This document shows positions 5,389 to 61,485 of a DNA stretch of 64,000 nucleotides, piece after piece (the first letter of the stretch is position 1; every line of letters starts with the position of its first letter). The position numbers and the translations under genes are program-made. Below the pieces are notes generated by a model that saw only the letters and a program-made list of their open reading frames with translations, did not search any database and was not told where the DNA came from. This DNA comes from Lucinisca nassula (lineage: Eukaryota; Mollusca; Bivalvia; Lucinida; Lucinidae), in contig OY757011.1 of assembly GCA_963580285.1 (NCBI GenBank), forward strand, positions 161,311,908 through 161,375,907. Direction: 5' to 3'.

Positions 5389-8300
5389 CTATACAAGGAA
5401 AACGCATTTCAATTGCATTGGATACATGTTCAAGGGAAGCAACTTAATAAAAATATATTTTTCTCTCTAGTCAACAAGGTCTATTCTTGAAAAGGAAATC
5501 TTTGCTTGTTTCAGAAGAGTTTTTCTAATAGGTATGAATTTAATTCTATTTAGAAGGTAGAGTAATTAATAGTTACATTTCTTAATTGTTATTTCAAGAC
5601 AGTTCTATATATTAGTTTTGCTATCTGTAGATACGCTTAAAATTTTCATTTGTGGATATTTGTATTTTTCATTCTCCTATGGCTCTTTAAGGGGAACCTG
5701 GCAGATTTTTCCTCCATCTTGCAAATGGAGTCAACTTTCGGGACTTCCTGTTCGCTCTTTAAGCCCCGTCCCACTAAAAAAAGGTCTAGTTATAAAGCAA
5801 ATTATTTCCTTTAAGGGTAGACCACTATTGACATGGGAGACAAAATAACTTTGGAGGAGTTGTCTTTCCTGAAAGTGTATCCATTCCCCTTAAGTATTAA
5901 ACATCATGTTATTACTTTCACACCAATCAGATCACTATTTGAGTCGCTTGTAATGTGCAGAGAATAAGGAACAGAAGAAAAGAGTGTGGGGTCATCTGCA
6001 AATAAATCGAAATCACCGTGTAATGGATATGGGTAAATCATTTACATATAGAAGAAAATGAAAGGGTTCCAGAACACTTCCCTTATCTTCACCTCCTGAT
6101 ATTGTTTTAGGGTTAATCTGAGATGTGTACTGGTGGTGTTCTGTTTGTGAGATATGATTTGAACAATATTTAGGAGCTCTGGTGCCGTCTGAATCCTACT
6201 TAAACTCTTTTTAACTACTTCGGTAATAAAATTCCATTTAAAATCGATATATGATAAACAGAATCTTACACTCGTGATCATTTTGCGAAGGACTCATTTT
6301 ATAAATTTCGTATGGAATGAAAATTCGTGTAAGATCCACTTTATATATGGGCAGGACACCACTACGCAAACCAACAATCAATCGTTCATTCCGCAATCAG
6401 GCATTCTAGTAACCTAATAATGGGGATTGAATAACTGCACGTTATAATAGGTAGTGACCTATAATACCTTTTACTGATCTATAAAACGTTTATTGTCCGT
6501 TTATAGACCGGACCTACTTTTCAGGTACTTAATTTGCAAGTGTAAACAATAAAGTGCAACCAAATAAACTGCAAGTTATTATCTTTGCTATATTTATTTA
6601 TATAAATTTTAGGAAATTTAAGCTAGACTCTTACCTCCTCGGGCTTTCCTGGTTTGAATGGTCCATTGCAATAATTGCGCACTGCTACTGCGGATGCCTC
6701 TTAATCTCGAAAATAATTTTCGAAGCTAAAATAAACTATTTATTCGCAGAATTTCATTTAGAATGAAAAGCGCCGGGAAAATTTTATTCGACCATGTTCT
6801 CTGTGGCGTGTTGACATCTTTGCACTCTTTGACGTCACATTATGCTACGTGTGCGCGCCAAGGCACAGAATGTCGTTTAGCTAGCTGCACTGTCTGCATT
6901 TTTGTTTATTGTGAAATTCGCTAAACTATTGCAAAACCCCTTGGTTTTTTTGGATTGCGGTATAAACTAAGTGTACGATTATTGTAGGGTCTTTGATAAT
7001 AAAATATAATCGGTTCGCCACGACAATTTTATAGGGGCTCGCTGTAGCTTGCCCCTATAAATTTGCGTAAGGCTCACCGATGCCTAACCATGCATTTACT
7101 ACTATTTCCACCATTTTCACTATCGTATGATATTCAAATGTTAGACCCTGTCCAATCACACATCGCGTTAATTCGCAAGTGCGTAAGAATTTGCTGTTAC
7201 CCCTGCCTCATGCGTGGTTACATAATACGTTGTCTTGTCGAAGTAGCAGGGTTCGTTTTCATCTATCAAATTCACGTAGAGAACATAAGGTCCAGTTTCA
7301 GCCTTCTGGTCACTCACGAAGAAGAGGAAAACAAAACCGTTCGAAATTTCATAGTCAAGAGTTTCATTTTCTACCAGTCTCAGTTCATACGCTGGAAAGA
7401 CACAGTTTAGATTTTTCCGTCATTTGAACTTATCTGTATTAAACATCACGAAAACACGCATATATAATTTTGACCCCCTTTAACCCCACTTATATATTGT
7501 AAAACTGGGGTTTTCAGGGGTAAACATTATTTTTCTTATTTCTGCTCAAAAACATAGATTGTGGGTACTCGATAGAACCGCCTCGTCGAGGCGGTTCTAT
7601 CGAGTCCCCGCAATCTATGTTTTGAGCAGAAATAAGAAAAATATCATATTTTTATCTGGAAATTTTCCTTTTTTGGGTGGTAAAATCTTCCAATACACTT
7701 GTATAGGCGTGTTTTCGTAATGTGAACCCGAAAGTTCATATTCAAACATCATTCTGGAGATGAACATCATAAGCTACATGTAGCTTGAAGAAACACTTTT
7801 AACAGGTTGTAAACTTTATTAGATGTTGTCATGCATTCTTAAAATATAAGAAAAATGTTTTGTTTGTTTTGCAATTGAAATGCCCGTTCAACACTCGTCA
7901 TGCCATATCGAGCCGGGAAGTTTACATAACCACATTTTACCTGAGCAGGCTTACACCATAGTGTAGTTTATATTCTCTTGTCCTTTGGGAGCATTGATTC
8001 CATTTTGGAATTTTGAAAATATCTGAGGGTCACTGATGAGGCCTAATTGGCCAAAACTAGCTAGTCAGGCCCAGAAAACATGTACACTTCATATTTTCTA
8101 GTTATGTGGTGTATTCCTTGCTTCAAAAGGATAACACTTTTATAGAACTTATTACACATTACCTGAGCAGGCTTACACCAAAGTGTAGTTTATATTTTCT
8201 TGTCCTTTGGGATCATTGATTCCATTTTGGAATTTTGAAAATATCTTAGGGTCACTGATGAGGCCTAATTGGCCGAAACTAGCTAGTCAGGCCCAGAAAA

Positions 8301-11300: not shown

Positions 11301-14300
11301 TCCTTTTGTTACATTATCCACCCAGTATACTCCATAACAAATAAAATACTTACTGCTGTTCTCCAAAGAAAATTTGGCTGTTGAGACAGAAGGTGTGACT
11401 GACCACGAGACAGAAATAGTCTCGTCTACATCGAGATCTGAAATGCATTGTAAATTGTTCCAAATTTTGACAAGGGATCTTGTGCCGTATAAATATAGCA
11501 ATCTCCTATTCCGTTTAGAAATCTATTTCTTTAATTAAACCAGGATCTCGCTGCATCGACTGAACAGTTTATAAACATGGAAGGCCCTGATCAGACGCCA
11601 CATTCTGCGGAGTCTCATCTGGTCTAAACGTTGATCAGTGTATCCGGTATCAATCATGGCGGGACAAGATATGCTTTTAAGCAAGACTTTGGCCTTCACA
11701 CCCAGATCACAATCATGACAGCTGTTGTGCTGAACAGAAATTTGTATCTAGTAGAGCTGATATAAAAAATCAAAGCATGGAGGGACTGCAGTTGTTCGGT
11801 TTTGTTTGTTTGATTTGAGGTTTAACGTCCCCGTCAACACTGTAAAGGTCATTTTGGAGACGCTGCTTCCAATTTTGTGGGACTTTTACCCGACATTGAG
11901 ATGAAATGACATCTCAAGCCCTGTCGCCCAATGAAACCAATAGGGTTTATTAGCATGGACGGTCCGCCTCACACCGCGGTTCCTGGACAGGCTTAGATCC
12001 TCTAAGCGGTTTACCAGTACTAGTGTGCGGGCCGGATTCAGCTCTGCGTGGAAGCATCATGCAGCAAATATATTTCTTCAAGCCCCTATGGGCGGGGGCC
12101 GTGCAGTTGTTCGGTACGACAGAAAAATACTAGCAATGTTTATTATTCGTATTAAATTGTAAATACAATTTCACTAATTTTCAGTTAATTGAATTAACAG
12201 AAATTAATTTCCACCATAAAAGCTGATTTAACTTACCGGAGACTGTTAACTTAGAAATACTTGCACCACTGGCTATTTCTTCAGAAACTGATATGGTGTC
12301 AGGAAGGTTTGTAATGACAGGAGGCGTGTTTGCATCTGGGAATTAAGAAAAACACTGCCTTAGCTGAAGTGAAATTCTAAGAACTATATCAAACGAGAAC
12401 ACAAGAAAGGGCTTCCATGGCCCCAAAGTTAAATGAACGCTGAACTTTTTTCATACTCAGTTCAATTGAGCCTGTGATACCTATTGATTTAAATTATCAA
12501 ATCACCAGCTTATGAGCATTTTTGTATGATTGCTAAACCGAGAATGAACTCATAAAAAATAAAAATGCCACTAGTTGTGGACGTTTTCATATTAATGAGC
12601 AGGACGCATTTTAATTAAATCTGTCATCTCATAAATCATCAAAATTCCAACAATAATAATAAGCAGGAAACTTTTTGTGCTCAATTGAGATAATCATGGA
12701 ATAACTACGGTTAATTACGAAAAACCGCCTATATAATTTTGACCCCCTTGAACCCAACTTTTATATAGTAAAACTGGGGTTTCCGGGGGTAAACCTTATT
12801 TTTCTTATTTCTGCTCAAAAATATAGATTGTGGGTACTCGTTAGAACCGCCTCGATGAGGCGGTTTTAACGAGTGCCAACAATCTATATTTTGAGCAGAA
12901 ATAAGAAAAATATCACAATTTTTCATCATAAAATTTTCATTTTTTCGGCGATAAAGGTGGCAATGTATTCGTATAGGCGTGTTTTCGTAATGGATTACCC
13001 GAGTATCTGAGAATATCTATGACGATCAGAATAGAATGAAATTTGTGTTGATCATAAATAATGAAATGTCAACAGTTGTAGGCATTTTTTAAGATTCATG
13101 AACATGACTCATGCCGTGCTCATTTGGGGTAGAGTATATAAACTCTTACGACATGATATTCGTAACGAAGGAAGGAATCATAGCTGAAAAAATCCCGCCT
13201 CCTATGTACTACATTTCGGTAACAGATCCGTGAAGCATACTGCATTCTTTGATATCTAAAAATGTTATTTTTCTGATGAAAATATGTGTAATTTTTCTTA
13301 TTTATTTTCCAAATATAGGTTGCGGGTTCTCGTTGGAACCGCCTCTATGAGTACGCACAACCCATGTCTTGGGTCAGAAATAAGGAAAATAATAAATACC
13401 CCTGTAAACCCCAGTTTTCTCTATGTAAAGTGGGGTTTGCAGGGATGTTCATTACACGGACTTGTGATGAATAAGTGGCGAGATATCTTTGTCAAACATA
13501 GTTCAATTTGCAGATAATGTAGCATTTATGCCGATTGCATATGTTTTTCTTAAAATGGTTTTAACAAGAAAAGATATGACAGAAAGTGTCATATTAAGTG
13601 ACACGATTGTGATTACATTGTACCAATTGGGAAAGAAACAGGCATTGATATCACAATATATTAAAACCGTCCAGTTATAAACTTATAAACAAGGATTATG
13701 AGATAAATGAATTTTCAGTATCAAATTAAAAAAAAAAAAAGACCTTTCCGACATTTTGTTACATTTGAAAACTTGAATATCTCAATTGGCATCACGAAAA
13801 CTCGCCTGTATAATTCTGAACCCCCCCCCCACCCCCACCCCCACCCCCCGAACTCCATTTCAAATAGTAAAACTGGGGTTTACAGGGGATATACTATATT
13901 ACTATATTTCTGCTCATATTTCGAGCAGAAATAAGACAAACATCACAACTTTTCATCTGAGAATTTTCGTTTTTTCGGCGGTTAAGTTTTCAATGTATTT
14001 GTATAGGCTATTTTTCGTGATGGACTGTTTGATATTTGTGGAAACCTGTGTTACATTCAACAGAGCCGGCCTCAGTGGCTCAGTCGGATGCGCGTCTGAC
14101 TGGTGATCAGGAGGACGCGGGTTCGACTCCCGCCGGGGTCGGCAACATTCTTTCGTGGAGATTGATCATGAAATATTTTCTACGGTCATTCTCTCCCTTC
14201 CGCTGATTCAAGAAGGGCAGTTGTCAGTTTCTGGCGAAAGAATGTGCACTGTACTGGTTAACCGCTTACGTATAAGCCTGCCCAGGAAAGTGTTGATAGG

Positions 14301-44000: not shown

Positions 44001-47000
44001 CAATTTCCCTTCCACAGTTTAGGCAAAAGACACTTGGAATGGTCAGCAACCCAGTCGCAGTTATAATCTAAGCTGTATATATTTTGGCATGTATTTTGTT
44101 TGATTGATTTGAGGTTTAACGCCCCCGTCAGCACTGTATATGTCATTTAGGAGACGTTGGTTCCAATTTTATGGGACTTTTACCCGACATTGAGATGAAA
44201 AGACATCTCAAGCTCTGTCGCTTAATAAAACCAATAGGGTTTATAAGCATGGAGGTCCGACTCGCACCGGTTTGCCTGGGCAGGCTTAGATCCTCTAAGT
44301 GGTTTACCCGTACTCCTGTGCAGTCGGGTTCAGCTCTTCGTGGAAGCATCATGCAGCACGTCTATTTCTTTAAGTCCCGATGGGCGGGGCCGTTTTCGCA
44401 TGTTTACTTGTGATAACAGATATATGTAATTTTCCATGTTCATACTTTATATATGTATACGCTGAATGAGGACCCAAGGGAAGATTGGACTGTTTCTAAC
44501 TGGGCCTTCTCGTTAAATAAAGTCATTACTATTATTATGATTATTATTATTATTATTAGATTGGTCAGGTAAGAGGTTTGTGTTGTTTGTGGAATCTTTT
44601 TATTCTCAGGGACATTAATGTGGATATATGAATATACGAAAACATGTTGAACCGGTAATGAGTCACGGGGATATAACTGATATGTATGGTAATCGCAGCA
44701 TGGGATTGGAGAGAGGGTATTTTGAGCGAATGAGTGAAGCTGAGATGAGTGGGTTGGGGAGCGTGGGCTGTGAATCTCATGATTGCGCCTTTACCTGTAA
44801 ATATACCCATATAAAATTAATGAGAATTTTGAGAATACATGTATATTGATTTCCACGGAAACTGCTCAGATGATTCTGTCCTAACAAACATAACCTGTTG
44901 GTAAATTTGTAAACCGTGGAGGACCATTTTCTTCCACGTCCACTGTGAGGACTGTCGAAGATGCGCCATATTCATCAGAACACACGATCGTGATGACGAA
45001 CGTCGATGTCACAGCATGTTTCAAGTTGGGGTTATTCAAGAGGTAGACTTCATAATCTGAAATGCACACGTAAATTATCAAAGCACTCAGGGTACTGGTG
45101 GGCCGATTGTCTTTGAGTGTAGGCTTGGAAAATAGTCCTGGACCTTCGTTTAATCATTAAATTCCAGTTGTCTGATCTGTGTCTGCATTATTAGCCAAGC
45201 CCAACCCATGATTCCAGTCCAGATTCTACAGGTAGCCCTCTTGCGCACTGATAAGAATAGCCCCGACTGTTTTCTATAAATAACCTTTGCCTAGTCTTCC
45301 GACAAGTCAGTGACAGTAATGTGGACTTAAGCATTGAAAAAACTTACTACGCTTTATAACTTTAGGTCGATTGTTTAACAATGAGTCTGTGTGCCCGAAA
45401 CGGCACAAGCTGAAATGAACAACTGATCGGAGTCTTTGTGACTGGCAAACGTCATCATCTTAGGATCCTGCCTCTTCCACAGTGCAGAAATCGAAAATTC
45501 TGATGGGCGAGCAGGCTACTCTGTTATATACAATTTCATATGTTAATGACTAGGAAACATTTTCATGGCATGACCCTCCTTAAAACATTAAACTATTTCT
45601 CAGTAACAGTTCCTGAGCAGTCGGGATAAAACATTCATGGTATAACATTCTGTAAGTGCACTTGGTCCCGAGTCGGGATATCGTAGGACAAGAAATGCAA
45701 TGCCAATTACGAAAACACGCCTATACAAATACATTGTAAACTTTACCGCCAAAACAAAAAAAAAAAAAAACGAAACTTTTAAGAACATTTTGATATTTTT
45801 TCTTATTTCTGCTCAAAATATAGATTGTGGGTACTCGTTAGAACCGCCTCTACTCGTAAGAACCACCTCATCGAGGCGGTTCTAACGAGCACTCATAATT
45901 TATATTTTAGAGCAGAAGTAAGTACAATAAGATTTACCCCTGTAAATCTCAGTTTTACTATATAAAATAGGGGTTCAGGGGGTTCCAAATTATATAGGCG
46001 CGTTTTCGTTATCCCGACGACGGACAATATCATAATGTTATTAATCAAGTAAATTCGTATTGGATCAATTACAGGTCCGAGGTCTGCTGTATTGCCGAAG
46101 GCCGAGGGTCAATACAGCTGATCGAGGACCTGTAAAGTTGACATTATTATAACATAACATAAAAAACGAAAGGCGGCGACTGATCAGGGCCTACATGGTT
46201 TGCAGTACAGGGGCCAGTTGTTCAAAACTAACGACGTCGTTAGTTAATGTAACGTTAAAACTTTGATCATTTAATATGGCAAATATGCTAATATTTTTGG
46301 TGAAAAAATGTGAGCAGCTTTTGCAATGCAAAAGCTGCTCACATTTTTTCAGCAAAAATACCAAAATTTTAAATACTAAACTTGTTAGAACAGTTACAAA
46401 TATGACCACTAACGAGCTCGTTAAGCTAACGATGCTTTGAACAACTGGCCCCTGGACTTTAAGGGTTAAACAAAAACAGTCTAAGTCCCCGTTCAGGACC
46501 AATTTCCAACCAACAATCAGAGGCAATCGGCCCACCATTGCCGTCAATGCTTTTATATTATATAGCTATGAGTATTTTGTGTCCCAAAGATACATTTATA
46601 TAAAAGAGGTGGCCTGTTTAATAGTCTCCAATAAACAAGTCCTACATCAAAATCAAAGGGATTCTGAGGTGATTATGAGCAGAGACTCTCTTAGAGATAT
46701 GTTTTAAAGGGGGCTCTTTAAGGGGAACTTGTGTGATGGTATACTTTTACTGAGATTGTTTCCACAAAATGTTGTTTTATTTTTTTTATTTCAAAAAAGT
46801 TAAGAAAAACGCTGACATATCCATTGTTTCATTTACTCAAAAGTGAACAGAAGAAAACAAACACGGTAAAGGAAAATGGACTGATTAATTCAAGATCTCA
46901 TCAATCAGTTAACAACTATTTATTCATTTATTTATTTTGTGAAAGTATGTGACGTCTAAAACATTAGCATTTTATAGTTTCAGTAAAGATAAAAAAATAT

Positions 47001-50000
47001 AAAATGCTTCTTGTTTTAGACACAATCATATCAGAAAAGAGAAAGCCTTATACCCTACATTTTTATAAAGTAAAACGGGAGTATAGAGGGGCCCACCTTA
47101 TTTTTCTTAGTTTTAATCAAAAACATATATTGTGGGTCCTCGTAAGAACCGCCTAAAGAGTACTCATAATGTAAAAAAAAAACATATTGAACAGGAAAAT
47201 TGGGGTTTAGTAGTTTAGGTCGTAGTACCAAAGCGTTAATCCAAAATCATTAATCCATAGACAATTGGCAAATATCAATGTTCAGACCAACAGACATGGA
47301 CTCCAAAAGAGTGTAATCAGGCGTCCTAGGATAGTAAGCATTACTTGGTAAGCAAGCTTCGCCCACCATGTTTAGATGAGTATACATTATTTTTTTGTCT
47401 TATTTCTACTCAAAACATATTGTAGATCCTTGTTAGAACGTCCCCACCGAGGCAGTTCTAACGAGCACCCACAATATATATTTGGAGTAGAAATATTAAA
47501 GATACCAGGATTTTTATCTAAAACATTTCACTTTTGGTGGTAAAATTTAACCAATGTATTTGAATAGGCATGTTTTTGTAATGATTATAAATAATTGTGT
47601 TTCTTCCATTAATATCAAAAACAGGACATAGTTATCAAACAAGTAAACAAGTAAATATATGTGATATGTCAAACCTACGTCCCTAGGTAATTGATCACCC
47701 TGTCTTGGTCCCCAACCTGTATGACAGCCAGATTATCCCGTCATAAGCGTGTTATGTAATCCAAAAGGAGTTTAAATCTCAAAATATGCACTTTACCAGA
47801 ATATAATGAAAGCGTTATTATTTTTTTTCGCGTGACTGCATTGAGTCGCCAGGTTTTACCTAACAATTAAATTCGAAAGCATCCGTGTACAGGGGGAATA
47901 ACAAGAAAGTGTGCTGATACCGTGTTTTATCATACATTTAGTATAAAATACTTAGTTTTTGAATATGCGATACGAACGTGACACCAATGCACGTATAACG
48001 CTTGCACGTGCTGCCATATCGCATGGGCTTTATCATACCCCAAAAATCCATATCACAACCCTTTATCGCACCCCTAAGCCTTTATCATACCTCTGACGTC
48101 ACCCTATTCGGAACACGCGGCGTTCTTCCTTTTGCGGCATTTCGCATTTGTTGTTCAGGACGCCATTTGCAATTTGCAATATTTTCGTCTGTTCGAACTG
48201 TTTGGCAAAAAAAAAAAAAAAAAAAAAAAACAACAACAAGAAACATGGCACGGCGCAGCGAATACGAGAGGAAAATTGGCGAAGGATTGCTGACATTTTT
48301 TTTTAAAGTGAAATGTATGATAAATAAATTATGATATGGCATTTTTCATATCATAACCCCATATCAGCCCTCGACCCATATCAGCCCTCAGGCCTTCGGC
48401 CCTCGGGCTGATATGGGAGTCTCGGGCTAATATGGGGTATGATATGAAAAATGCCATATGATAATCTCTATATATCAACACTAATGTTACTCGGATTTTA
48501 TCGCCCATTTCTAATCATTCAAAATGTAGTATAGGCATATAACAAAATGGTTTCTTGCTTGGATGATGTTTATTTCTGACGAAACATGTGTGATAATTTT
48601 CAAACAAAGGTCGTGTGTGCTCGATATCCAGGCGGTTTGCTTACGTCCCACTAACAGCAAAGGTCAGTTAGGTCGATATATCAGTTTAAAGACTTATGCA
48701 AACCTACGACCCCTGGCTTTTGAGACGGGTAGCTTAATGACTGCATTGCGCAGGCATCTCATGGAGATGGTCCTAAAAAGTACCCAGATTCAATAGTTTG
48801 CTGCAAGAAGACTGTAAATCATTTATAATATTGTAAACTACCCTTGTCTCCAAGTTGTATGTGGGTTACAGAGTATTCATACTACGGGCTCTGAACTACA
48901 TGACCCTTCTTTCATGCATCAACGCATTGGATCTCCATATTAAAGGTGTTGTTGAATCGATACACCTTAAAGTTTTATGGATACAGACTCTAAATAAGAA
49001 GAAATGGGACTGCATCACGATGACAAGTCCTTGTAAATAGCACCCCTCTAAACCCTACTTTACATTAAGAAAACACGCCTATACAAATTCATTGTAAACT
49101 TTACGTCCAAAAAAAAAAAACACACGAAAGGTTTGAGATGAAAAATTGTGATTTTTTTCTTATTGCTGCTTAAAATATAGATTGTAGGTACTCGTTAGAA
49201 CGCCCCTAGAACCACCTCATCGAGGCGGTTCTACCGGGTACCCACAACCTATATTTAAGAGCAAAAACCAGAAAAATAAGGTTTATCCCTGTTAAGCCCA
49301 GTTTTACTATATAAAAGTGGGGTTCAATGGGGTCAAAATAGTATAGGCTTGTTTTCGTGATGATATAGAGAAAACGTGGGTTTACAGGGGTATACGTTAG
49401 TTTTCTACAGGGTTATACGTTAGTTTTCTATAGCCGCCTCAGTTAGGCAAGACATAGGTTGTGGGTACTCTTTAGAACCGCCTCAATCAGCCTATGTTTT
49501 AAGTATAAATAAGATAATCATAACGATTTTTCACAGAAAATTAACCGTTTTAGTGGTATGAATAAGTGCAATATGTTGCACAGGTGTGATATCGTAATGG
49601 GATTCCAGGTTTTGCGATGTAGAGTGTGCTTATTTCTTATTCGAACATACAGTCAGGTGGTACTAGGGGTGATCAATAAATTCGAGAACTTTTGCTATAA
49701 CTTAATAATGAAAAACGATACTTATTACTTCTCGACATAGGATCCCTTGACCTTGATACACTTTTGACATCTGTTCATCCACGCGCCGAACGCGTGACGT
49801 AAGCCGTCACGTGACACCTCCCTAAGCACCACCGTTATAGCAGCCCCTAGTTCATCTCGCGTCTCATATTTTACACCATGCAGCTGATCCTTCACATTTG
49901 GAAACAGGGAAAAGCACAGCTAGCCAAGTCTGGGCTATACGGTGGATGCGGTAGAGTTTCGATACCCAGTTCCTTGAGGGTGGACGTCACAAGTTGACTC

Positions 50001-53000
50001 ACGTGCACTTGAGCGTTGTCTTGGTGCAAAATGAACCCCGACCTTACAAGTTCGGGACGTTTATCTCGAATAGCTCTCTGCAACTGGAATTTAATTAGAT
50101 GTGCGTAGTATTCACTATTGACTGTAGTTTTAGCTGACACCATGTGATTCAACACAATTCCTTTTGTGCCACAGAATATGATGGACATAACTTTACCCAC
50201 TGACTTGGAAAGTCGGGCTTTTACAGGCGATGGTGACGATGCATGCTTTCACACGGAACTCTGTTGCTTGCTTTCCGGCTCAAAGAAGTGGAACCATGTT
50301 TCATCACATGTTATTATTTTATTCAGGAACCCATCACGTTCCTCTGCATATCGGTAGAGAATATCTCGACAGATCTGTTTCCTTACTCTCTTCTGGTCAG
50401 GCTGAAGTAGACGAGGTACCCACCTTGCACAGACGCGGCTTAATTCAAGCTTTTCCGTTAGAATCTCTTGGGCTGTGCCATAACTTAAGTTAAAGACCTC
50501 CGCTACATTTCTAATAGTCACTCGCCTGTCTTCCATTACGTATTGTTCAATGGCAGCACAGTTTTCCTCTGTAGTATCCTTCACAATGCGGCCAGATCGG
50601 GCGTCATCTTTGGTCGATGTTCTTCCGTCATTGAAGCGATGCCACCATTTATGAATACAAGATTTCAAAAATGCTGCTTCTCCGTATATTTCTTGGAGAT
50701 CCTCTTTGATTTCGCTCATAGTCTCCCCTAATTTTACATAGAATTTACTGATAGTCCTCTGTTCTGCAAAAACGTCGTCAGCCGTTTTTGAACGGTGAAC
50801 GTGAAGTATGACGTCGAAAATATGACGTCACGAACGTAATACCTTGATGACGTTGTCCGTAGCGTGCTATTCTCTCGACCATATAAATTTTATTGCGATT
50901 GGTCGTATATTAAAAAAGTTATAGCAAAAGTTCTCGAATTTATTGATCACCCCACGTAAATATTAATTTTGTTTGTTTGTTTGTTTTGTCGTTAAACGTC
51001 CCAGTCAACACTGTACAGGTCATTTTGGAGACGATGCTTCCAATTTTGTGAAACTTTTACCCGACATTGAGACGAAATGACATCTCAAGCCCTGCCGCCC
51101 AATGAAACCAATAGGGTTTATAAGCAACGGTCCGACTCGCAACGCTTTACCTGGGCAGGCTTAGATTCTCTGAGCGGTTTATTAGTACTCGTGTGCGGTC
51201 AGTTTTAGCTCTGCGTGGAAGCATCATGTAGCCCATCTATTTCTTCAAGCCCCGATGGGCGGGGGCCGGGTAAATATTAATACGATATAATTCAGTTATT
51301 CAGACCATCTAAAATATGACGAAAGCATATATAGGGGAACATGATCTTCGTCCGACGGAATATTCTAAAGATATAATAATCACAGGGGCGTGATTGTCAT
51401 TAAATGAAAACCTGAGCGGTATACCAATAGATCCTTTCCATATTCCGAAGATCGTTACCGCTGGAGAAACGTCAATGATGTCACATGCGACGGCATCACC
51501 TTCAGGGTCAGTGACGTTAAGTGTGTATATACTTCTCTGAGCAATCTCATTCTCATTGACATTCACAGGTGTTGGTGGTGACAATAATATGGGTGCCTGG
51601 TTAGGTATTACGTCAATCTGAATAGAAAAGAATGACAGTACATGATTCGATTAAATTGAAAAATGTTTACGGAACCATGTTGAAAACGGTACGCTTCAGT
51701 TGTAATACCATGTAGTTGCTGTCAATAACTAGTATAGTCCGAACAAATTGGCATGAGACTGGTGAACTCTATTACCATAATTTCACGATCGACTGAATGC
51801 ACGTATTTATCTTCGCTGTCTCCCGAAGATGATGATATTGGTATTCAATACATAGGGGTCGGTAAATGGGTCGCAATTCACGAGATGCGGAAAATTCACG
51901 AGAGGTTTACGAAAGTCGACGTATTAGGCGATAACATTGACTAATTTATTCCTTGCATAAAGGTCAGTCTCATGTCAAATTGTTCGAACTATAAAACTCG
52001 CTCACAAAGATCCTATAGACTGTAAATACAATTGTATGCCTAATTCTGAAAGACATATTTCTGAAAAAAAAAATAACACTTCGATCGCTGCAGAAAATTC
52101 TAGAGCGGACAGCAGTCTGTTTTCCATTATATTTGCTGAACAAACGATTCACGTAAATTGTCATGCCTTATTTTCGTCGAAAAATAAGAACATTCATCTG
52201 AAATACTATGCCGTCTGCTAAACGTGCTCAGCGCTTGAGGGTTAACAAAGAATGTCATTGAAAGTTTATGGGTCTGCGTATGGTCCAGTAAAGTGAAAAT
52301 AGTCATAAGCTGGAAATATCAGAAAAGTTGGATCGCTTTTGCTCCACCGCGTGACGTGAAGATCACATTGTTGCACATATTCTATACTTAACGTTATTTC
52401 TATATAAATCAGTAACATTAGAACTCTTCATCACGAAAACACGCCTACATAATTCTGATCCCTTTGAACCCCACTTTCATTTTGTAAAACTAGGATTTAC
52501 GGAGGGTTGACCCTTAGTTATCTATTTCTGCTCCAAAATAAAGATTGTTGGCATCGTCGATGAGACGGTTCAATGCGTACCCACGACCTATATTTTGGAC
52601 AGAAATAAGAAAAATATCAAGGCGGTTCTAACGAGTACCAACAATTTATATTTTAGAGAAATAAGAAAATATGACATATTTTCATCTAAAAGTTTCATTT
52701 TCGGGCAGTAAAATTTACAATGTATTTGTGTAGCCATGTTTTCTTATAATTAATGTCTCCTAAAATGATGTAATCTAGACTAAGTAACATAAGTAAACGG
52801 CCCCCGCCCATCGGGGCTTGAAGAAATAAATGGTTGCATGATGCTTCCACGCATAGCTGAATGCGACCGCACTTGAGTACTGGTAAATCGCATAGAGGAT
52901 CTAAGCCTGCCCAGACAAAACTGTGCGAGTCGGCCCGTCCATGCTTATAAACCCTATTGGTTTCATTGGGCGACAGGGCTTGAGATGTCATTTCATATCA

Positions 53001-56000
53001 ATGTCGGGTAAAAGTCCCACATAACTGGAAGTAACGTCTCCAAAATGACCTGAACAGTGTTGACGGGGACGTTATACCTCAAATCAAACAAACAAACAAA
53101 TATTAGTAAAATGCGTTAGCTATTCATGTTTCATCTGTTATATACTCGTATGTTATGTTCGGTCAATCAAACATTGCTACACCCAAATCTCTATTTCAGT
53201 CAAAGTTTCAACACAATAAATGTGTAAATCTATGAGAACATGAATACTGGGTATTTTTAAACCTTTCAAAATAATATTTTCTATTAAATAATCATTACTA
53301 TTGCCTTTGTTAATATTTCCAAGTATAGGGGCGTAGGCAACTATGTCAAACATGGCATGTCTCACAATTCGTTCGACGTATAGCTTTAACAATTGCATTT
53401 AAACTGTGTTTTTAAATTAAGGGAAATATAACAAGTCAACGCAATGCATCAAAATTCATTATTTATTAAAAACAAAATGAACAAAATCTAGTAGACAAAT
53501 AGACAATTTAGTACTTGAAGATGAAAAAAAAAAAATACAAGGGGTATTGGGGTAACACACTTAATATGCCATATATTCTATTAGCCCCACTCGCCAGATG
53601 GCAGAAAACAGATATTGGGCTTTTAAACGATTGGGATTTACGAAATCCCCCTTGGGAGAGGGTGGAGTGTGTACGTGTGTGTGTGTGTGTGGGGGGGGGG
53701 GGGGTGCAAACACTCTCCAATGGCTCATAGCCTAGATTATTCGTAAGAACAAACTATGGTCGCGTTCAAACGAGGGTTAGATCTGCTAAACTGGTCAATA
53801 GTACGAATACAATGGAGTTCACACTAAAAGTACTAAAATGCCTATGTTAAGCCGAGCTTTGGGATTGTTCAAAAGTGCTGATTAAAGACATTTATTCTTT
53901 ATTATTGAGGACTTTCATTTCATTACATAATATTATGAAACCCTCACAGCTGACTGAAGAGAAGTCCTTCAACAGGTAAGGGGCCTCCTTGGAGAAAATC
54001 AATAATTTACTTACTGTTGACTGGTCTACATAATTGATTTTCCCCTTAAGTGCCTCAGTCAGGGGATGCAACAAGAGGTACTGATCACTCTATTAAGGAC
54101 CGTCTTTGATCTGCTATAGTCAGTATATCACAAGGGGCAATAAAACAATTATGAACACACGGTGTGTCCTACTGTTACAAGAATAAATGCCTATAAGACA
54201 ATTTTTCGAACAGTTCCAAAAGCGGAAAATGGCTGAAAAATGTAAACTGTCTTAATATGCTTTTAAAAGCAGAATTAGTCTTTATTTTATTAGCCGGTCT
54301 TAATAGAGGAATTTCACTGTATTTGTGATCGCAAATCTGGACCGGACAATGAGAGACGAAAGCATCAGTCCGAATAAATCAAATAATTATCTTTCGTGCC
54401 CGGATATATCACTATACGCAGTTGAGGGGTACCATTATGTACAGACTGTACTGAATTTATTCGTGCCAGACTGGTCCCGGGCCTAGAAGCCTCCGTGGTG
54501 CAGTGGGTACGCTACTCGCCTTGTAAACCAGGGATCGCAGGATCGATCCCGGGCTTCTCCAGACTTTCGGATGAGTCTTTAAAACCGAGGTCCCGTCTCC
54601 GTATGACCTTAGCTGTTGGTGGGACGTAAAACTAAAACTCACTCACTCACTGGTCCCGGGCCGATCTCGCACAGATTATCAGTTTAGTGTGAATATTTAC
54701 CGCTATTGTTTCTGACGACGTTTCTCCCGCAGAATCAGTGCAGGCGATGCTGAGGTTATAGCCAGAACAGTTGTCGAAATTTAGACCGGCTGTTGACAGG
54801 AGATATAGCTCTAGATCTGCAATACGCAATACGAAATTACACAAGTATCACCTTTTACAAGAAGTTTAGGTCTACACATAGCACACATAGTCACAGAATT
54901 GGAAAGTAAAATCACAAAACTGTTAATGTGTTTGTTGTATTAGTGTCCCAGTACATATATGAAAGTGTATAACAGCCAAATATTCGTTATGTTCACTCCA
55001 GTTATATATTTAAACAAAACTACCAATCTTTCCCTATTACAATATGACAACGACTTGTACCATTGAAATAAAAAAAATCAGTAAAACAGGTACATCTACC
55101 TATGTATTCTGTTTCTGTTTTTTTTATTTTGTTTTTTTTTTTCACATTCTGGGTTAACATTATCCAAAAATGCCTTTTGAGGAAGCCGTCTGAGATTTCT
55201 TTTTCAACAAAAAGCGATATCAAACAGAAAATAGATATACTGTATAACAGGTGGGAAATCAGCATCGTGTAAACCCAGAAAACATGTGTTTATTTTGTCA
55301 GCATGACAGCTTGTGATAAATTTAAGAGAGTGTTCCGGCAATCCCGAGTTATAAGCGTTAGGATTTATAACGCTGATGACGTATCAATGGAAAATAACAT
55401 TCAACCAGTCATGACCTTTTCTGAAATGCTTCCGAAGCAAAAGGAAACATTAAATAGTGGGCGTAGACAATAAGGATAATGGAATGAGCGGCTTTCGTAA
55501 TTATGACGTGCTGATGATAGGAGATATAGTTCAAAATCAGTTATTCTACAATATTACAATTATATTAGGGGAATGGATTGAGCAGTTGTTGTAATTTAGA
55601 TCGGCTGACGAGCGGAGATATAGTCCAAGATCTGTAATTACAATTACATAAGGGGAATGGATAGAGCATGTGTTGTAATTGAGATCGGCTAATGATAGGA
55701 GATATAGCCCGAGATCTGCAATATTTCAATTACATAAGATGACTGGATGGAGCAGTTGTTGTAAGTTAGATTGGCTCATGAGAGGAGATAAAATCCAAGA
55801 TCTGCAATATTGCAATTACATATGGGGAATTGATAGAGCAGTTATTGTAATTTAGATCGGCTAATGATAGGAGATAAGCCCGAGATCTGCAATATTACAA
55901 TTAAAAAAAGTGAGTGGATGGAGCAGTTGTTGTAATTTAGATCGGCTCATGAGAGGAGATATAATCCAAGATCTGCTATATTACAATTACATAAGGGGAA

Positions 56001-59000
56001 TTGCTAGAGCAGTTGTTGTAATTTCGATCGGCTAATGATAGGAGATATAGTCCAAGATCTGTAAAACTACAATTACATAAGGATAATGGATAGATCAGTT
56101 GTTGTAATAAGGGTCGGCTAATGATAGGAGCTTTAGCCGAGATCTGCAATATTTCAATTACATAAGGTGATAGGATTGAGAAGTTGTTGTAATTTAGATC
56201 GGCAAATGAAAGGAGATATAGTCCCAGATCTGTATTATTACAATTACATAAAGGGAATGGATAGAACAGTTGTTGTAGAGCAGTTGTTGTAATTTAGATC
56301 GGCTAATGATAGGAGATAAAGTCCAAGATCTGCAATATTGCAATTACATAAGGGGAATGGACAGAGCAGTTGTTGAAATTTAGATCGGCTCATGAGAGGA
56401 GATATAGCCCAAAATCTGCAATATTAGAATAACATAAAGGGAAAGACTAGAGCAGTTGTTGAAATTGAGATCGGCTAATGATAGTCCAAGATCTGCAATA
56501 TTACAATTACATAAGTGGAATGAATAGAGCAATTGTTGTAATATAGATCGCCGAATGATAGCAGAAATATACCGAGATCTACAATAATACAATTACATAA
56601 GGTGAGTGGACGGGGAAGTTGTTGTAATTTAGATCGGCTCATAAGAGGAGATATAGTCCAAGATCTGTAAAATTACAATTACATAAGGTGAGTGGATGCA
56701 GCAGTTGATGTAATTTAGATCGGCTCATGAGAGGGGATATAGTCCAAGATCTGCAATATTGCAATTACATAAGGGGAATGGATAGATCAGTTGTTGTAAT
56801 TTAGATCGGCTGATGATAAGAGACAGAGCCCAAGATCTGCAATATTACAATTACAATTACATGGGAATGGATAGAGCCTTTGTTGTAATTTAGATCGGCA
56901 AATGCTAGGAGATATAGTCCAAGATCTGGAATATTACAGATACATAAGGGGAATGGATAGAGCATTTGTTGTAATTTAGATCGGCTTATGATTGGAGATC
57001 GACCAAAGATCTGCAATATTGCAATTATATTACGGAGAATGGACAGAGTAGTTGTTGTAATTTAAATCGGCTTATGAGCGGAGATAAAGTCCAAGATCTG
57101 CAGTATTACAATTACGTGAGGGGAATGGATAGAGCAGTTGTTGTAATTTAGATCGGCTGATGATAGGAGATATAGTCGAAGATCTGCAATATAACAATTA
57201 CATAAATGGAATGGATAGAGCAGTTGTTGTAATTTAGATCGGCCCCTCAGAAGAGATATAGTCCAAGATCTGCAATAAAACAATTACATAAAATGAATGG
57301 ATAGAGCAGTTGTTGTAATTTAGATCGGCTAATTATATGAGATATAGCCCGAGCTTTGCACTGTTACAATTACATAAGGGGAACTGATAGAGCAGTTGTT
57401 GTAATTTAGATCGGCTAATGATAGGAGATATAGTCCGAGATCTGCAATAATACAATTACATTAGGGGAATTGATAGAGCAGTTGTTGTAATTTAGATCGG
57501 CTAATGATATTAGATATAGCCCGAGATCTGCACTATTACAATTAAATAAGGGGATTGATAGAGCAGTTGTTGTAATTAAGATCGGCCCCTGAGAGGAGAC
57601 ATAGTCCAAGATCTGCATTATTACAATTTCATAAAGGGAATTGATAGAGCAGTTGTTGTAATTTAGATCGGCTTATGATAGGAGATATAGTCCGAGATCT
57701 GCAATATTACAATTACATAAGGGGAATGGATAGAGCAGTTGTTGTAATTTAGATCGGCTAATGATAGGAGATATAGTCCGAGAGCTGCAATATTACAATT
57801 ACATAAGGGGAATTGATAGAGCAGTTGTTGTAATTTAGATCGGCTAAAGATAGGAGATATAGTCCGAGATATTCAATATTACAATTACATAAGGGGAATG
57901 GATAGAGCAGTTGTTGTAATTTAGATCGGCTAATGATAGGAGATATAGTCCGAGATCTGCAATATTACAATTACATAAGGGGAATGGATAGAGCAGTTGT
58001 TGTAATTTAGATTGGCTGACGAGAGGAGATATAGCTCCAGATTGAAAATATAACAGATGCAAAAGGGAAGCGGATAGAGCAGTTGCCTTAATTTAGACCG
58101 GCTGATGACAGGATAAATACATGTACCTCAGTATCTGCAAAATAACGATTACATTAGGGGAATGAACAGAGCAGTTGTCATAATTTAGACCGACTGATGG
58201 CTTAAGGGTAGCTTTGCACTAAATACTGGAGGTACTGGGTTTTATCATTTTGGGACAGAGCTTTTAGTTGCAGTCTAAATACCAGGCAGGCTTCCATTGG
58301 ATAAATATCCCATGTTTCATTTCAATGTGAGAAAAGGATAGTTATAAGGAAATAAAATGATGTGTGTTTTATAAATATATCTGCAAGCTCAAAGAAATTG
58401 TGGATGATTTTATCTTGTCACCTCTCCGTTAAAAAGCCGGCTTGTATTCACTGCGAATCTACATGTAAACAAACATGGCGGACCATAACTTGAAAAGGAG
58501 ACGAGCAACATGTGGATTTTTCTCATCAACTTGTTGAGCTAGGATGGCTCTATAAATAAGAAAGGTTTGAAAAGTTTTGCATGTGTAGTTTTTGTGGGAG
58601 CATGTAAAAGGTTACTATTGTCGCCTATGGAAAATATTTAGTGGTAAGCTCCCTATACCAAAAGTTGGAAAATCAGCCCCACACTCCATTTTTCAGTCAT
58701 TACATCATATTTTCACACATTGGTAGGTTCTATCCAATTCTGTATCATAAAATGGATATTCCTGGCATGTGGTTTGCCATAGAAACTGTAAAAAAGTGTA
58801 AGGTGTGTGGTAATTTAGGTCTAACTGGGTGTTTTTGATCAGTTTTTGCTTCTGATCTGTGCATTTGGGGGGGGGGGGGGTACTTTAAAGCCATGTTAAT
58901 CAATTGTTAATGGGTTTGTTTTGGAAAAAGTCTTACAGTAAGTGTATAACCAGAAACACAAGAGAAAGAATCTACTCCATCTGGAATATAACAGTAAGGT

Positions 59001-61204: not shown

Positions 61205-61485
61205 CATCACGATAACACGCCTATATAATTTTGACCCCCTTGAACCCCACCTTTACATAGTAAAACTGGGGTTTACAGGGGTAAACCTTATTTTTCTTAT
61301 TTCTGCTCTAAAATATAGATTATTGGTACTCGTTAGAACCGCCTCGATGAGGCGGTTCTAACGAGTGCCCACAATCTTTATTTTGAGCAGAAATAAGAAA
61401 AATATCACAATTTTTCATCTTAAAATGTTCATTTTTTTCGGCGATAAAGGTGGCAATGTATTTGTATAGGCGTGTTTGCGTAATG
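61205..61485. mobile_element. Foldback MITE upstream of exon 1
   Basis: Ends CATCACGATAACACGCC and GGCGTGTTTGCGTAATG, with a near-perfect central hairpin around CCTCGATGAGG. An ATT microsatellite (61500-61540) follows. Confidence 0.84.

Follow-up and report, generated by a model that had tools for sequence, protein, structure and literature searches.

A 64,000-nucleotide stretch of the genome of the lucinid bivalve Lucinisca nassula (contig OY757011.1, positions 161,311,908 to 161,375,907; referred to as the window, in whose own coordinates all positions are given) carries on its minus strand a cadherin-type gene. Intron 1 of this gene, as numbered in the stretch analysed, contains an array of about 32 tandem 86-bp units that resemble the boundary between intron 1 and exon 2. 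The array very probably arose by tandem duplication of a piece of this boundary; it would be tolerated within the intron, and its decoy acceptors would be mostly ignored in splicing. Enlargement of such a tolerated duplication by unequal exchange is the most likely explanation. The following features are involved.

60943..61117, minus strand: exon 1 of the stretch analysed, the first half of a cadherin repeat, phase 1 at its end (open frame joined to exon 2; Pfam Cadherin 22.3-23.0 bits)
54701..54816, minus strand: exon 2, the second half of exon 1's cadherin repeat, with acceptor ATTGCAG/ATCT and donor GCG/GTAAAT (from frame and Pfam)
55470..58199, minus strand: 86-bp array, 32 units, with AG in the acceptor position in 27 (Tandem Repeats Finder; BLAST extent)
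54764..54845, minus strand: segment homologous to the unit, with 53 nt in exon 2 and 29 nt in intron 1; probably the last unit of the array on its proximal side (alignment, in-register contact)

Tandem Repeats Finder gives a period of 86, 30.7 copies, and 80% matches at 55545-58189, in agreement with the approximately 31 copies upstream of the true exon in an initial annotation of this DNA. For unit-by-unit comparison the array was cut into 33 segments. The last one (55412-55483) is mostly spacer, with 3 exon-like, 3 consensus, and 7 other states at the diagnostic columns described below, and was excluded, which leaves 32 units. The units stand head-to-tail with a constant period, as in satellites and minisatellites.

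When the unit is compared with the window, a separate match is found at exon 2, covering 82 bp (54764-54845). The unit-exon alignment scores 74, while 1000 dinucleotide shuffles have a mean of 17.0 and a maximum of 30, and the ungapped core of 61 bp is 83.6% identical (E 1.2e-13 within the window). The match of the units to the minus-strand intron 1/exon 2 boundary given in the initial annotation thus stands up against shuffled sequence, although the extents are 29 nt of intron and 53 nt of exon rather than about 25 and 60. The true acceptor carries a tandem doubling, CGTATTGCGTATTGCAG, at 54817-54829; the array consensus is without this doubling. A breakpoint model deriving the linker of about 10 nt in the unit from the present flanks of exon 2 was tried and rejected. 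Its best fit (29 nt of intron and 63 nt of exon) is equalled by 65 of 120 random flanks.

In the 2.93-Gb genome all 30 matches of the unit are at this locus. Because the match counts for the unit are lower bounds, an extra scan was made with a 24-base core, allowing up to two mismatches. All 26 matches are in this array, with none on the other strand and none for a reversed control. Exon 2 with its flanks, searched against the genome with E up to 10, matches itself and units u04, u03, and u02. No further copy of the unit is found within 50 kb on either side of the window. Apart from the array and exon 2, this range has a single match of 19 bp (5878-5896 in the window), which was taken as chance. 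Viral contigs have no exact match to the unit core. Confinement to one locus makes it unlikely that a dispersed satellite merely resembles the exon. The many genomic loci of a dispersed, high-copy satellite are not seen, within the limits of counts that are lower bounds, and for an array at a single locus "minisatellite" is the better term.

Between exon 2 and the array lies another sequence, about which the initial annotation, correct in placing the array upstream of exon 2, is silent.

54846..55469, no strand assigned: inserted dispersed repeat of about 624 bp that separates the array from exon 2, with ACAAG (54841-54845) on one side and ATAAG (55470-55474) on the other

This spacer repeat has 1770 candidate places in the genome, 40 of which were scored, and the listed matches are 67-85% identical. 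Among the 60 matches listed besides itself, query positions 3-627 are spanned and none beyond these, corresponding to 54852-55476. No clear terminal inverted repeats stood out in 54846-55469. The near-duplicate ACAAG/ATAAG fits a 5-bp target-site duplication.

With such a neighbour, the array might have been brought in or produced by a mobile element, the likeness to exon 2 then being chance or secondary. A precedent comes from the oyster Crassostrea gigas, whose satellites and pieces of Helitrons occur intermingled and in tandem (review, PMC12628747). However, the unit is at one locus while the neighbouring repeat is widely dispersed, no shuffle comes near the unit-exon score, and the genome scans, as far as these go, find the unit linked to the element at no other place. 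An origin from a mobile element is extremely improbable.

The position of the inserted repeat also links the array to exon 2. On the exon side homology extends to unit phase 24 (54845), and on the array side it sets in at unit phase 20 (55470), so phases 20-24 are present on both sides. When the insertion is removed in silico at an optimised join point, the array continues into exon 2 in register, with a score of 250 compared with 181 when the insertion is present. The in-register contact and the insertion edges, which lie at almost the same bases, are most simply explained if the splice site of exon 2 was the last array unit before the insertion. Exon 2's own splice site is therefore probably the last unit of the array, a point that was also missing from the initial annotation.

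The ends of the array retain more of the exon than its interior. Sixteen diagnostic columns were defined as the positions where the exon differs from the array consensus, and four edge units were distinguished.

55484..55577, minus strand: proximal edge unit u32, NFELYLLSSARHNYESRS in the exon frame (4 exon-like, 12 consensus, and 0 other states at the 16 columns)
57989..58199, minus strand: distal edge units u03, u02, and u01, the last shortened (exon-like states 3/16, 6/16, and 8/12)

Exon-like, consensus, and other states number 21, 34, and 5 in the edge units and 19, 377, and 49 in the 28 inner ones. The exon-like share of the non-consensus states is higher at the edges (Fisher 4.8e-6, or 8.9e-4 without u01), and four random units reach 21 exon-like states in 7 of 200,000 draws, although these statistics are somewhat flattering as the edge set was picked after the state counts had been inspected. 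The same tendency is seen in the peptide reading, which is NLELYLLSTAGLNFDNCS in the exon, NLELYLLSSANLNYNNCS in u03, NFELYLLSSARHNYESRS in u32, and NLGLYLLSLADLNYNNCS in the common inner form. Retention of exon-like bases had been claimed for the distal copies. It holds for u01-u03 and extends to the proximal u32. Of the shared columns, 46 of 232 are changed in edge units and 112 of 1697 in inner units, i.e., the interior is homogenised and the ends are diverged. That array centres are better homogenised than ends is known (PMC5615363). In the unit tree rooted on the exon (support values not printed), u01 splits first, u02 and u32 are near the base, and u03 is inside.

Array ends that share states with the exon would equally be expected under exonization, in which a pre-existing satellite supplied one of its units as the 5' part of exon 2 and the exon froze an early state of the satellite. 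The exon segment covered by the unit bears on this point, together with the counterpart of exon 2 in the next cadherin repeat.

44895..45056, minus strand: exon 4, exon 2's counterpart in the next repeat (acceptor phase as in exon 2; alignment)

With the 18 unit-covered residues, exons 1 and 2 score 23.0 bits against Pfam Cadherin (PF00028; cut-off 28.8 bits, which exons 5 and 6 pass at 47 bits), and 14.4 bits when these residues are masked. Ten exact shuffles of the 18 residues give 14.7-19.6 bits, and an arbitrary sequence in the same place gives 14.7 bits. A composite of edge-unit residues gives 23.6 bits. The unit consensus, read in the exon frame and put in the same place, scores 23.5 bits (15.9-17.5 in the other five frames), as its likeness to the exon entails, and this value therefore adds no separate evidence on direction. 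Exon 2 aligns with its paralogue exon 4 (33%, E 0.003), as had been noted before. Exons 4, 6, and 9 share the start phase of exon 2 and, judged by eye, seem to begin at the same point of the cadherin repeat. Given the cadherin-like covered residues, the common start phase, and the alignment with exon 4, the start of exon 2 looks old and not brought in by the satellite. These three observations, and the fact that the satellite is found nowhere else in the genome, make exonization quite improbable. The direction from exon to satellite is supported by the single locus, the cadherin-like covered segment, the exon-like array ends, and the in-register contact with exon 2, so that the exon is probably ancestral, as the initial annotation had it. 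Chance likeness, an element-borne array, and an exonized satellite were rejected in view of the shuffles, the single locus, and the cadherin signal of the exon segment.

The piece shared with the units includes the splice acceptor, and many units still have it in a like context, as claimed before. The acceptor position holds AG in 27 of the 32 units, CAG in 26, and exactly TTGCAGATCT in 14. Scored with approximate matrices, the real exon 2 acceptor reaches 7.44 and the 27 in-register decoys 0.0-5.6; among the other AGs in intron 1, 6 of 249 are above the real acceptor, three of these being in the array but out of that register. The donor of exon 2 (6.26) lies outside the unit, and none of the 80 GTs in the array reaches its score. 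The best one, at 5.34, exceeds three of the eight donors assigned to the gene (exons 3, 4, and 6: 0.83, 3.94, and 4.91). The earlier statement that no unit keeps a donor is in line with this, and the run of decoy acceptors it described is real as sequence, with all 27 in-register members scoring under the true site. Of the sequence features of decoy exons, the units have acceptors and no GT that matches the exon 2 donor score. When exon 1 is joined to each of the decoys and translated, a stop is met within 3-84 codons in all 27 cases, which predicts a truncated protein.

It is conceivable that this row of acceptors is functional, detaining the spliceosome in intron 1 or yielding truncated products, so that array length would tune the amount of full-length cadherin. 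The preservation of AG in 27 of the 32 units, three AGs in another register of the array that outscore the real acceptor, and the best array GT being above three of the eight assigned donors all speak for a function. Moreover, intron 4 of OGT is held back by decoy exons with weak splice sites (PMC12017769). In that source, however, a 5' splice site is a requirement for decoys, and no unit has one as strong as that of exon 2. The in-register decoys are also weaker than the real site. All 28 inner units have the acceptor A and 26 of them the G; the column conservation quartiles are 0.86, 0.93, and 0.96. The acceptor bases are thus within the usual range of columns and not better conserved, with no sign of selection for or against acceptors. 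A functional acceptor row is improbable.

Several points weigh against an origin by tandem duplication of the exon 2 boundary with decoys that are ignored. The source of the unit linker of about 10 nt is left unexplained by the breakpoint model, in which 65 of 120 random flanks do as well. Joins at random phase into the array interior, which is more uniform, have a median score of 250 as well, and the join point had been optimised, so that the joined score of 250 is weak evidence by itself. An in-register contact is expected by chance alone about one time in ten. By plain distance the units nearest to the exon are inner units (0.208) and not the edges, because the edges accumulated more private changes. 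The choice of edge units after inspection of the counts, the approximate splice matrices, and the three higher-scoring AGs in the other register belong to the same list.

The proposed course of events begins with tandem duplication of an 86-bp piece over the intron 1/exon 2 boundary. Growth by unequal exchange or slippage would have led to about 32 copies in addition to the exon's own copy, and an insertion of about 624 bp would later have separated the array from exon 2. New copies would fall upstream in the intron, where growth may be tolerated. As the last copy alone continues into the remaining exon and the donor, exon definition would pick that copy. The upstream acceptors, with lower scores and no good donor, would be mostly passed over, likely for want of a donor that would define them as exons.

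As for the rest of the gene, exons 1-7 join in frame on reading the sequence, and two further cadherin-like exons (named 9 and 10) lie beyond exon 7. No exon 8 was found. One more exon deserves a separate entry.

51425..51617, minus strand: exon 3, first half of the repeat that follows (low-scoring donor; relative P0001, 70% over 63 aa)

Because its donor is weak by score (0.83), the exon 3 junction rests on the frame and the repeat pattern. Exons 3 and 4 have no PF00028 match and match PF17963, a bacterial Ig model, at 19.2 bits, below the cut-off. Exons 1 and 2 align with solved protocadherins (best E 0.0014). The protein of 337 aa joined from exons 1-7 has one relative, P0001, which covers exon 3 only, and the P0001 contig has no match in bacterial/archaeal or viral collections. 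Protein searches with the exon 2 frame and with an array frame gave no candidates. The protein of exons 1-4 has four matches in its own genome (E<=0.001), all of which are exons of the window, so there is no paralogue usable as an outgroup.

Other repeats are found nearby, one of which abuts the array.

58207..58607, no strand assigned: repeat abutting the distal array end, with a 98% identical copy at 59575-59976

Numerous relatives of a repeat at 60640-60927, which contains near-palindromic arms (60739-60846), are present on both strands of the window (e.g., at 7446-7722, 12727-12992, and 61207-61485). Between exons 3 and 4, at 49895-50827, two long minus-strand frames resemble, by eye, pieces of a mariner-type transposase.

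Several known systems are similar in part. Minisatellite or low-copy satellite arrays shaped by unequal crossing over also have head-to-tail units and an interior more uniform than the ends (PMC5615363). The present array differs in that its unit extends across an intron-exon junction and that the copy at one end is probably the ancestral one and still used. Satellites also arise from other sources, e.g., RNA genes. Those from transposable elements are likewise arrays built from a piece of older sequence, as reviewed in PMC12628747. In the present case the source would be the acceptor region of a coding exon, and the array is, within the limits of the scans, private to its locus. Decoy exons in retained introns such as that of OGT are splice-site-like sequences in a long intron upstream of a true exon (PMC12017769), while the present putative decoys are about 27 copies of acceptors without a good donor. 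Tandem exon duplication can lead to mutually exclusive exons, as in insect Dscam, and there too intronic tandem copies derive from one exon. Mutually exclusive exons have a whole exon, an acceptor, a donor, and an open frame in each copy. The array copies hold 53 of the 116 nt of exon 2 and no donor, and therefore cannot be alternative exons of the Dscam kind.

The components proposed here, i.e., tandem duplication, unequal exchange, and insertion, are ordinary; their apparent combination, a one-locus array with a unit spanning a coding exon acceptor and a last unit that is that acceptor in use, was not met in the literature searched. No array grown from the acceptor of a coding exon is reported in the listed titles and abstract beginnings of that literature, which is no proof of absence. 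Since the probable ancestor of the array is still in use at its end, the sequence itself allows one to tell in which direction the array evolved. On the improbable alternative, the true exon start would be the last in a series of about 27 tandem acceptors that recombination can tune. The length of the array would then determine for how long the spliceosome stays upstream and the output of full-length cadherin, and unequal crossing over would alter splicing output as a trait. The locus also offers a natural test of splice-site choice, with about 27 acceptors of common descent standing before one real site and differing from it mainly by the whole exon and donor that follow. Exon definition would be illustrated if splicing used the real site cleanly; otherwise, copy number would be a regulator.

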